64,000 nucleotides of DNA from Polyangia bacterium (GTDB lineage Bacteria; Myxococcota_A; Polyangia; Fen-1088), in contig DATATI010000083.1 in assembly GCA_036268875.1 (NCBI GenBank), positions 1 through 64,000 of the forward strand, written 5' to 3'. A program made the position numbers and the translations under genes. This document shows, one piece after another, positions 1,338-4,377 of the stretch (positions are counted from its first letter, which is position 1; each line of letters begins with the position of its first letter). The notes beneath the pieces were generated by a model. That model was not told the DNA's origin. It worked only from the letters and a program-made list of their open reading frames with translations, and made no database searches.

Positions 1338-1499
1338 GTGGCTGAAAAGAACACCCGCAAGCCGGGACAGCCGGCCAAGAAAAAAAAGTGGGAGAGCCCG
1401 CGCATCAAGAGCGGACACCTGTTCGAATCGAACAGCCTGGCCTGCGGCAAGAACGGGCCGCAGATCGAACAGTGCATGCAAAACCCCGTCATGTCCTGA
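1338..1499 (+). CDS. Putative RiPP precursor peptide (53 aa)
   Basis: A 53-residue peptide starting at GTG, with AAAGGA about 8 bases upstream. The N-terminal part is Lys-rich. Residues 18-26 read WESPRIKSG, which matches the shape of the YxxPxLxxxG motif that RRE (PqqD-like) domains bind in lasso peptide leaders. The segment after it reads LFESNSLACGKNG (28-40), then a Gln/Cys-containing tail ending in PVMS, so the last residue is Ser53. Cysteines are C36 and C46. The next gene starts 9 bases downstream and the three following genes encode a HprK-like/peptidase fusion, a PqqD protein and a radical SAM enzyme, the usual setting of a ribosomally made, modified peptide. Leader/core border and modification are unknown. 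The coding call is supported by the RBS, the motif and the context rather than by length. Confidence 0.75.
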   Translation: MAEKNTRKPGQPAKKKKWESPRIKSGHLFESNSLACGKNGPQIEQCMQNPVMS

Positions 1500-1508
1500 G
1501 CCGCCGCC

Positions 1509-2882
1509 ATGTCGCCCAAACGCGCCACCACCACCACCGAATTGCTGCTCTCCATTGGAGGCGTGGTCGGGCGCATCTCGCTGGGCTCGGCGCCGAGCGC
1601 GTTTCTGGACCAGATCGCCGCGCGCTATGACGCCTTTCGCTTACCGCCCGCCGACTGGGTCGATCGCGCCTTCGCCTTGCGCCTGACGTTCGTCCCGGCG
1701 GTGGCCAGCGGCCCCGCCGGCCGCACCGCCGAGCTCGCCGCCCAGCCGCTGACCATCAATGCCAGCGGGCGGGCGATCAAGGCCAGCCGCTGGGATTTCT
1801 CGTTCAAGCTGGCGCCTGAGACCTTTCGCAAGCGCGCGCGCTGGGCCGGCACGGCTCGCTGCGAGATGAATCCCTTCGCCCTGGATTCTTTGCTGCGCGT
1901 CTTGTGGTCGACGTTCCTGTCGCTGGAAGGCGGCGCCTTGATTCATTCCTGCGGCCTGCGCCAGGGCGACGGCGCGCTGGTCTTCCCCGGCGTCAGTGAG
2001 GCTGGCAAGACCACGCTGGCGCGCAAGATGGACGATCCTGACGACGTGCTCAGCGACGAGATGGTCGCCCTGCGCAAGGACGACGATGGCCAGTGGCGCG
2101 CCCACGGAACGCCGTTCTGGGGAGATTTTCAGCGCGGCGGCATCTCGCTGCGCAGCTGGCCGTTGCGGGGCGTGGGCTTTCTCAAGCAAGGCGACGCCGT
2201 CGGCGCCGCGCCCTTGACCTCGGCCGAGGCGACGCTGCGCCTGCTGGAATGCTTTGTCTGCTTTCAATCCGACGCCGAGACTGCGCGCCGCAACCTGGCC
2301 ATCGCCGCCGGCCTGTGTGAATCGACCCGCTGCTTTGAGGTGCAGTCGCGCAAAGAAACGCCGGCCGCCGAGATCATGCGGCGGGTGCTTCCCCACGCCG
2401 GCGCCAACCAGGCGCGGCGATCCAAGCCGCAGACCACCCGCGAGATGATCTCCGAGTTCCGATCGTTCCTGAAAAAGAACAAGACCTACGCCTTCAAACC
2501 GCAGGGCGGCAGCATGCGGCCCTGGCTGAAGGCTGGCGATTCGCTGTTCATCCAATCAGCCGGCGAAAGCGAGATCGGCGCCGGCGATATCCTGCTTTAT
2601 TGGAGCCCGGGCGAAAATCCCGACGACGACAACCTGACCTGCCACCGCATGGTCGGCCGCTTGCCGGCGCTGGGCGGAGCGGCCGCCCGCATCGTCACCA
2701 AGGGCGATGCCGTCAGCAGCATCGAGCACTTCGAAAACGGCCGGCAATCTGAAATCCTGGGCAAGGTGTCGGCGGTGGCGCGCGATGGAAAAACCTGGCC
2801 GATGCCTGGGCGCGTGGGCAGCCTGGCCCGGCTGTTCGGCTCGCTGGTGGCGATGCCGATCCTGAAAATGGCGGGGCGATGA
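1509..2882 (+). CDS. HprK-like kinase fused to S26-type signal peptidase
   Basis: 457 residues with two domains. Residues about 110-295 resemble the HPr kinase-related proteins found in peptide-modification loci: P-loop GVSEAGKT (161-168), acidic LSDE (181-184) and HGTPFWG (199-205). Residues about 312-435 are an S24/S26 peptidase-like domain: GGSMRPWLKAGD with the likely nucleophile Ser335, and TKGD with the likely general base Lys398. No obvious transmembrane helix frames the peptidase part. The fusion suggests that one protein both phosphorylates (or binds nucleotide) and cleaves the precursor encoded just upstream; this is inference. Known relatives: PadeK-type HprK homologues phosphorylate the C-terminal Ser of paeninodin, and HprK-related kinases occur with PqqD in other predicted peptide systems. 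Its stop overlaps the pqqD-like start (ATGA), so the two are coupled. Confidence 0.85.
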   Translation: MSPKRATTTTELLLSIGGVVGRISLGSAPSAFLDQIAARYDAFRLPPADWVDRAFALRLTFVPAVASGPAGRTAELAAQPLTINASGRAIKASRWDFSFKLAPETFRKRARWAGTARCEMNPFALDSLLRVLWSTFLSLEGGALIHSCGLRQGDGALVFPGVSEAGKTTLARKMDDPDDVLSDEMVALRKDDDGQWRAHGTPFWGDFQRGGISLRSWPLRGVGFLKQGDAVGAAPLTSAEATLRLLECFVCFQSDAETARRNLAIAAGLCESTRCFEVQSRKETPAAEIMRRVLPHAGANQARRSKPQTTREMISEFRSFLKKNKTYAFKPQGGSMRPWLKAGDSLFIQSAGESEIGAGDILLYWSPGENPDDDNLTCHRMVGRLPALGGAAARIVTKGDAVSSIEHFENGRQSEILGKVSAVARDGKTWPMPGRVGSLARLFGSLVAMPILKMAGR

Positions 2883-3184
2883 CGACGACCTTCGACGACA
2901 GCAGCTTGTGGCGGCGCGATCCGGCGTTACCCTTTCAAGCGATGGACGAAGAGATCATCGTCGTCGATCCCGGCACCCGGCAGGTGCACCTGCTGAACGC
3001 CACCGCGGCCCGCATCTGGACCTTGCTGGCCAGCGCCCAGTCGTTGCCGGCGCTGGTGGCGGCGCTGGAAGAAGAGTTCGAAGCCCCCACGCCCGCCTTG
3101 CGTTCCGAGATCGAGGCGTTTCTTACCGAGATGAGCGAAAAGCGTCTGTGCGTTGCGCAGCCGCCGGCGCTGTCGGAGCGCTGA
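2879..3184 (+). CDS. PqqD-family RiPP recognition element
   Basis: 101 residues of the PqqD fold (winged-helix RRE) that binds leader peptides and delivers them to radical SAM or other enzymes. The diagnostic core is visible: EIIVVDPGTRQVHLLNATA, then ARIWTLL, and a C-terminal helical half with a run of Glu. The start codon overlaps the stop of the kinase/peptidase gene by 4 bases, and the radical SAM gene begins 2 bases after its stop. It is therefore in a tight operon and is the likely partner that holds the WxxPxIxxG leader of the 53-residue peptide. Confidence 0.88.
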   Translation: MTTTFDDSSLWRRDPALPFQAMDEEIIVVDPGTRQVHLLNATAARIWTLLASAQSLPALVAALEEEFEAPTPALRSEIEAFLTEMSEKRLCVAQPPALSER

Positions 3185-3186
3185 CG

Positions 3187-4377
3187 ATGAGCGCCGACCA
3201 GCGCAACATTCCGCCGAACGGCGGCTGCCGCGACGACGAATTTGTCGGCGTCGCCGACGGCCATCAACTGATCGGCCAGGTGCAGTCGTGGGCGTATGCC
3301 AACGTGGTCCCGCTGAACGCCAGCATCGAGACCACCCTTCGTTGCAACATCCGCTGCCAGCACTGTTACAACTTTGACCGCGACACAAAAAAAGATCCCT
3401 GCGCCGCTGACTCCGAACCAGAGCTGTCCGCCGACGAGATATTGAAATTGATGACCGACCTGCGCGCCGCCGGTTGTCTGTTCCTGTCGTTGACCGGCGG
3501 CGAGGTGCTGATGCACCCACAGCTGTTTTCGTTTCTTGACCACGCCGGCGCGCTGAACCTGACCGTGCAGCTGCTGAGCAATGGAACGCTGCTGCGGCCA
3601 GGAATGGCCAAGCGCCTCAGCGGCTATCCCAACTTGCTGGGCGTCAGCGTCAGCATCTACGGCGCCACGCCCGCCGTGCACGACGGCATCACCCAGGTGG
3701 CCGGGTCGTGGCGCCGGACCTGGGAAGGCGCCGAGCGGCTGCGCGCGCTGGGGGTGGCGGTGCGAATGAAATTGATCGTCATGCGCGGCAACGCCCACGA
3801 AGCGGCCGCCATGCGCGCCGCCGCCACCGAGCGCGGCTTCGCCTATCTGATGGACCTCACCATCACCGCCCGCCACGACGGCGACGCCAGCAGCCTGGGC
3901 ACGCGCGTGACGTTGGAACAACTGGAAGACCTGTACCGGGGGCCGCTGCGCGATCTGGCGGTCAAAGGTGCGCGCCCCGTGACCGAGGAGAGCTTCCCGT
4001 GCAATTGCGCGCGCGGCAACGTGGCCATCTCGGCGCGCGGCGACGTCTTCCCGTGCGTGTCGGTGCCGATGGCGGCCGGCAACATCCGTCGGCAGCCGTT
4101 CGCCGACATTTGGGCTCATTCGCCGGTGTTCCAGCGCATCCGCGGCTTGCGCATCACCGACTATGAGCAGTGCGCGCCCTGCCCACACCAGGCGCACTGC
4201 GGGCGCGATCGCGGCGCCGCCTTCAACGCCAGCGGCAGCTACACCGGCGTCGATCCCTTCGTCTGCGCCACCGCCGAGCTGGCCCACGCGCTGGCCGACG
4301 AGACGCAGGCGGCGATGGTCGACGCAGCGAACGAAGAGCAAGCACCGGCACCGGTCCGTCTGCGCGTCGCGCGCTAG
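3187..4377 (+). CDS. Radical SAM/SPASM peptide-modifying enzyme
   Basis: 396 residues. The radical SAM 4Fe-4S motif is CNIRCQHC (C53, C57, C60), followed by a TIM-barrel core with LTGGEVLMHP. Near residues 275-345 there is a SPASM-like cysteine set (FPCNC, FPCVSV, QCAPCPHQAHC) for auxiliary Fe-S clusters, as in enzymes that form carbon-carbon or thioether links in peptides. The reading frame is open further upstream, but the ATG at 3187 directly follows the PqqD stop and gives the right N-terminus. Its tail is short and Ala/Glu-rich. It is the last gene of the cassette; the next gene is convergent, 3 bases away. Confidence 0.9.
   Translation: MSADQRNIPPNGGCRDDEFVGVADGHQLIGQVQSWAYANVVPLNASIETTLRCNIRCQHCYNFDRDTKKDPCAADSEPELSADEILKLMTDLRAAGCLFLSLTGGEVLMHPQLFSFLDHAGALNLTVQLLSNGTLLRPGMAKRLSGYPNLLGVSVSIYGATPAVHDGITQVAGSWRRTWEGAERLRALGVAVRMKLIVMRGNAHEAAAMRAAATERGFAYLMDLTITARHDGDASSLGTRVTLEQLEDLYRGPLRDLAVKGARPVTEESFPCNCARGNVAISARGDVFPCVSVPMAAGNIRRQPFADIWAHSPVFQRIRGLRITDYEQCAPCPHQAHCGRDRGAAFNASGSYTGVDPFVCATAELAHALADETQAAMVDAANEEQAPAPVRLRVAR

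Follow-up and report, generated by a model that had tools for sequence, protein, structure and literature searches.

A probable RiPP operon type joining a radical SAM enzyme to a core like that of linear polyphosphorylated peptide clusters

The 64,000 nucleotides analysed here (the window) start at base 1 of contig C83 (DATATI010000083.1) of the 6.15-Mb genome of a Polyangia bacterium. The genome encodes eight MYXO-CTERM domains scoring above cut-off, whereas the controls have none, which would point to Myxococcota. The window contains a compact plus-strand operon of four genes encoding a 53-aa peptide, a fusion of an HprK-like kinase with an S26 peptidase (457 aa), a PqqD protein (101 aa), and a radical S-adenosylmethionine (SAM) enzyme with a SPASM domain (396 aa). 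It is likely that this operon represents a phylum-wide type of ribosomally synthesized and post-translationally modified peptide (RiPP) system, in which a core like that of the linear polyphosphorylated peptides (LPPs) is joined to a radical SAM enzyme and in which the precursor would be bound, modified, phosphorylated, and cleaved. LPPs are encoded by lppAKBSDN (Popov et al., Nat Commun, May 2026; PMC13381572), and RiPPs with a RiPP recognition element (RRE), HprK, and SipW-type peptidase have been described as restricted to Bacillota (PMC13381572).

An earlier note on this DNA, made from the sequence alone, had described four compact genes with gaps of 9, -4, and 2 bases, and all open reading frames (ORFs) were confirmed at the positions given below. 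Profiles, fold, and conserved residues also support the identities assigned there to the kinase-peptidase fusion, the RRE protein, and the SPASM enzyme.

1338-1499, + strand: RiPP precursor peptide, 53 aa, GTG start (dN/dS, GC content at third codon positions (GC3), alignment)
1389-1406, + strand: WESPRI leader motif, predicted PqqD/RRE-binding site (conserved [WY]xxP; covariation with PqqD residue 77)
1431-1496, + strand: predicted core NSLACGKNGPQIEQCMQNPVMS, behind FES (cut site placed by analogy with LPP, behind FET; PMC13381572)
1443-1445, 1473-1475 and 1494-1496, + strand: core landmarks Cys36, Cys46 and C-terminal Ser53 (two Cys and C-terminal Ser/Thr conserved)
1509-2423, + strand: HprK-like kinase domain of the fusion gene 1509-2882 (weak ScmC/HprK-related matches; fold; Walker A GVSEAGKTT at 1989-2015)
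2424-2882, + strand: SipW/archaeal-type S26 peptidase domain of the same gene (TIGR02228, 4.8e-6, below cut-off; triad Ser335 (codon 2511-2513), His379, Asp400)
2879-3184, + strand: PqqD-type RRE (PF05402, 3.8e-15; nearest solved structure 9x8z, LppB)
3187-4377, + strand: radical SAM/SPASM maturase (CX3CX2C Cys53, 57, 60; SPASM Cys272, 290, 329, 332, 338, 360; Asp341)

Comparison of related loci argues that the 53-aa ORF is a genuine gene and not a chance reading frame. Its translation, (V)AEKNTRKPGQPAKKKKWESPRIKSGHLFESNSLACGKNGPQIEQCMQNPVMS, begins with GTG behind an AAAGGA ribosome-binding site, and its GC3 is 0.83 compared with 0.85-0.86 in neighbouring genes. Among loci of the window's family, its ratio of nonsynonymous to synonymous substitutions (dN/dS) is 0.18-0.34, with similar or higher values for the radical SAM and fusion genes. 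A related-locus search using the radical SAM protein returned one locus only. Relatives of the peptide were first found beside radical SAM homologues, aligned, and then used as a profile over class and phylum genomes, which led to a collection of 74 precursors. The respective loci encode a radical SAM enzyme in 68 cases, HprK in 66, PqqD in 54, and S26 in 53, and all four are found together in 40 of the 74 loci, contig ends notwithstanding. Where places were fetched by a peptide match alone, a radical SAM gene is present in 29/33 at the class level, and HprK and radical SAM genes are present in 19/20 and 17/20, respectively, at the phylum level. Small ORFs of the WxxPxI type, on whose presence beside homologous loci the earlier note had made its reading depend, are thus conserved in dozens of genomes. 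One further profile match (L114 in genome G039), a long frame without a cassette, was dropped as likely false.

Alignment of the precursors gives the consensus RxPYExPxI-xxxxx-FET-xAL-x-C...C...S. The motif [WY]xxP is present in 54/54 class-level precursors, and FE[T/S] is found at a comparable position in 29 of these 54, with FES in the window. The last 32 residues contain exactly two Cys in 66/74 precursors and more in the other 8/74. Ser or Thr is found among the last three residues of 69/74 precursors, compared with about 38% expected from composition. Since the precursor profile itself selects such features, the independent evidence consists of the gene neighbourhood and the covariation of leader and PqqD protein.

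The closest solved relative of the PqqD protein is LppB in the LppB-LppA complex (9x8z; best PDB match, E 6.6e-5). In LppB, Asn33 fixes the kink at the leader Pro and Asp70 forms a hydrogen bond with the leader Tyr (PMC13381572). The window protein matches LppB at N40 (equivalent to Asn33) and F81 but has E77 in place of D70, and the equivalent of Asn40 is retained in nearly all family members. Where the leader has Tyr, position 77 is Asp in 44/44 loci; where it has Trp, 6/8 loci have Glu, Gly, Ser, or Gln instead (Fisher p=1.4e-6, without correction for relatedness). Seven of the eight Trp loci derive from one family and the eighth from another. This covariation provides strong comparative evidence that this PqqD protein binds this leader, as had been proposed in the earlier note.

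The PqqD protein would thus bind the precursor at its WESPRI leader, as suggested by the covariation and by the relation to LppB, and would then hand the core to the SPASM enzyme. This enzyme has Radical_SAM and SPASM domain matches of 1.2e-18 and 2.6e-12, respectively, and the three cluster-binding Cys as well as most SPASM Cys are conserved throughout the family. Its structural model (predicted local distance difference test score, pLDDT, 86.7) is nearest to the fold of CteB (Z 27.2), which forms thioethers, followed by ChlB, SkfB, anSME, and SuiB, and its best PDB profile match is SkfB (2e-43). Most likely, the enzyme would join Cys36, Cys46, or both to a further residue of the core. A thioether crosslink would be the likeliest reaction because the core contains two near-invariant Cys.

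Phosphorylation and cleavage would be performed by the fusion protein. By sequence, the kinase has only weak ScmC/HprK-related matches, and searching the PDB with the sequence of the fusion returned nothing useful. An AlphaFold2 model (pLDDT 83.6) matches the phosphoenolpyruvate carboxykinase (PEPCK)/HprK superfamily over residues 2-302 (best Z 15.6, root-mean-square deviation 4.8 over 249 residues); the fold search covered residues 4-302 of the fusion, and the assignment of the S26 half rests on sequence. Walker A is retained in nearly all of the 53 kinases aligned. HprK homologues in LPP and paeninodin biosynthesis phosphorylate a core serine (PMC13381572). By analogy with the paeninodin kinases, the HprK-like domain would phosphorylate a serine of the core, for which the conserved C-terminal Ser53 is the best candidate. 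The S26 half contains the motifs GGSMRP, CHRM, and TKGD, in which Ser, His, and Asp are placed as in SipW/archaeal signal peptidases, and the S335/H379/D400 triad is kept in most S26 members. LppS cleaves LppA behind FET, aided by the RRE (PMC13381572). The S26 domain would correspondingly cut behind FES and leave a 22-aa core. The fusion is limited to the window's family, with separate kinase and peptidase genes elsewhere. By uniting both activities, it would link phosphorylation with cleavage, in line with what LPP genetics indicates. In family f22, four cassettes (L138, L141, L142, and L143) contain two tandem HprK-like kinase genes each.

Several observations weigh against the proposed scheme of binding, crosslinking, phosphorylation, and cleavage. 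The radical SAM enzyme scores under the curated cut-offs of every family compared. At position 341, the SPASM CX3C Cys of most relatives gives way to Asp throughout the family of the window (the window and L027-L031), and other SPASM ligands are missing from the homologues in L124, L126, L134, and L144. In genus g2 (L027, L028, and L029), the kinase half and the precursor FES are kept, but none of the three catalytic residues (Ser, His, Asp) remains in the S26 half, so that the leader would be cleaved there by another enzyme or not at all. Within the nearest 12.7 kb, the genes examined have housekeeping functions and no transporter was found among them, and a motif scan did not find an ABC exporter as a conserved part of the cassette. 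Five precursors lack a C-terminal Ser/Thr, and the Ser targeted by the LPP kinase (core position 3) is not conserved among these precursors. The latter point, together with the weak sequence similarity to true HPr kinases and PEP carboxykinases as nearest folds, would also fit a kinase domain that spends ATP otherwise, for instance on regulation or on activation of the peptide, with the radical SAM change as the only stable modification. This is unlikely, given that Walker A is conserved, that the C-terminal Ser is strongly enriched, and that HprK homologues of LPP and paeninodin systems phosphorylate their own peptide (PMC13381572).

The proposed system resembles LPP in its aromatic-xxP leader, FE[T/S] ahead of the predicted core, an HprK-like kinase, a discrete RRE whose closest solved relative is LppB, and a SipW-type Ser-His-Asp leader peptidase. 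In addition, NTP_transf_5 is encoded in about a dozen relatives of the window locus; among the window neighbours scanned to 12.7 kb, neither an LPP-type NTP transferase nor an MsbA-like transporter was found. In contrast to LPP, for which no radical SAM/SPASM enzyme is mentioned (PMC13381572), such an enzyme is present here, the core has two Cys, kinase and peptidase are fused in the window's family, and the host does not belong to the Bacillota. The leader has W for Y, and the FE motif is two residues nearer. The precursor deviates from the LPP consensus YxxPxVLxHQxIxFETxxS in that its motif is WxxPxI, its F lies at +11 rather than +13 (counted from the aromatic residue), and its core position 3 is not Ser. 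The earlier claim that no described class has this exact set therefore holds only in part: four of five parts match LPP (PMC13381572), whereas the joining of a SPASM radical SAM enzyme to an LPP-like core and the lineage-specific kinase-peptidase fusion are new.

Paeninodin-type lasso peptide clusters also share a WxxPx[LVI] leader, a PqqD RRE, an HprK kinase, and a conserved C-terminal Ser with the window locus, which has a radical SAM enzyme and an S26 peptidase instead of macrolactam synthetase and B2 protease. In agreement with the earlier note, which had reported neither lasso cyclase nor B2 protease, neither the lasso cyclase nor the B2 family has a match on contig C83 (PF13471 and PF00733). 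Sactipeptide and ranthipeptide systems (CteB, SkfB, StsB/StsC) have a SPASM radical SAM enzyme and a Cys-containing core in common with the window locus; to our knowledge, HprK kinases and S26 peptidases are not parts of these systems. In StsB/StsC, StsC is the discrete RRE and is grouped with RREs binding W/Y/LxxP (PMC12710340). The cut-offs of StsB and SkfB lie far above the scores of the radical SAM enzyme.

Matches to SynChlorMet proteins extend over three enzyme types: the kinase has its best NCBIfam match in ScmC, ScmD resembles PqqD, and ScmE and ScmF are radical SAM/SPASM proteins. The scores are far under the respective cut-offs (ScmC 34.7/125, ScmD 17.5/100, ScmE 95.4/400, and ScmF 68.8/400 bits). 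The SynChlorMet cassette contains two radical SAM proteins, and we know of no precursor identified for it. Cut-offs are also not reached for HprK_rel_A (TIGR04352 18.4/200 and TIGR04353 33.0/35 bits, the second being borderline) and for pyrroloquinoline quinone (PQQ) proteins (PqqD 26.3/46 and PqqE 80.2/381 bits). In the freely accessible literature, no system was found that joins a radical SAM enzyme to an HprK/HPr kinase or to a signal peptidase and PqqD. By the features tested, the system is neither an LPP nor a lasso peptide system, and membership in the sactipeptides hinges on product structure. Its leader would be bound and cleaved, and its peptide phosphorylated, in the manner of LPP, and the crosslink would be made as in the maturation of sactipeptides.

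The profiles of PqqE and of the mycofactocin maturase also match the radical SAM enzyme, which raises the question of whether the operon yields a cofactor derived from the peptide, or an intracellular phosphopeptide, similar to PQQ or mycofactocin, rather than a secreted natural product. Housekeeping neighbours, the lack of a transporter nearby, strong conservation of the core within the family, and synteny of the locus among carriers would agree with this. A cofactor-like product is nevertheless quite improbable, as the cut-offs for PqqE and mycofactocin are missed by far, the core differs between families, the locus is patchily distributed within the window's family (7/18 genomes), and the peptide is paired with surface lipoproteins in relatives.

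The genes upstream of the precursor differ among loci. In the window, the following gene ends about 30 bases 5' of the peptide gene:

648-1307, + strand: HEAT-repeat protein with N-terminal transmembrane segment (Pfam HEAT_2, 4e-12; homologue at the same position in 6/6 family loci)

Promoter and terminator scans gave no signal above chance. In about 48/74 loci, a giant ORF (approximately 800-2400 aa) ends directly 5' of the peptide gene, and most of these encode FG-GAP/Ig-like lipoproteins. Examples are found in L039, L111, L116, L121, L142, L178, and L185. In a Bdellovibrio metagenome-assembled genome (L005, 2-11008), the giant protein has 2443 aa and a C25 peptidase domain, and its gene precedes a cassette of precursor, separate HprK and S26 genes, NTP_transf_5, PqqD, and radical SAM. 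Most loci thus encode a HEAT or giant surface protein directly 5' of the peptide. It is nevertheless highly improbable that this protein rather than the small ORF is the substrate of the cassette, since the leader motif stays constant while the upstream partner changes and leader and PqqD covary.

The genome of the window (G000) encodes two copies of the giant lipoprotein, which were found by profile search and missed by a single-sequence search. On its contig C8 (L212, C8:1-9000), a separate lasso cluster adjoins an FG-GAP/Ig lipoprotein gene:

C8, 133-1119: PqqD-HprK fusion
C8, 1106-1552: B2 protease
C8, 1500-1730: lasso precursor (YEAPML)
C8, 1667-3565: Asn synthase
C8, 3610-7761: FG-GAP/Ig lipoprotein, same family as the lipoproteins beside radical-SAM-type precursors

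This arrangement recurs in G011 (L218), a second genome of the window's family, and one that appears similar is present in G002 (L225). Both G000 and G011 have Tyr in the lasso leader and Trp in the radical-SAM-type leader, the reverse of the situation in Bacillota. Trp may have replaced Tyr to avoid cross-talk with the lasso system in the same genome; this suggestion finds no support in the other Trp-type genomes, in which no B2 was detected. The presence of the same lipoprotein family beside kinase-bearing lasso clusters in the window's family would suggest that peptide and lipoprotein form a ligand-receptor or surface-display pair, independent of the crosslink chemistry of the peptide. Tentatively, and with some doubt, the operons could form a RiPP class extending over the phylum, whose LPP-type core and SPASM enzyme yield small thioether-bridged phosphopeptides that act together with giant FG-GAP/Ig surface lipoproteins.

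A core comparable to that of LPP is thus spread over another phylum, where it is coupled to radical SAM chemistry and a conserved two-Cys core. The compact four-gene system allows the order of phosphorylation, crosslinking, and cleavage to be tested, and the kinase-peptidase fusion provides a means of testing the coupling of its two activities. It is accompanied by a natural Tyr/Trp switch in the leader with matching changes in the RRE. A starting point for finding the biological role of kinase-bearing RiPPs is provided by the giant lipoprotein that recurs at these loci.

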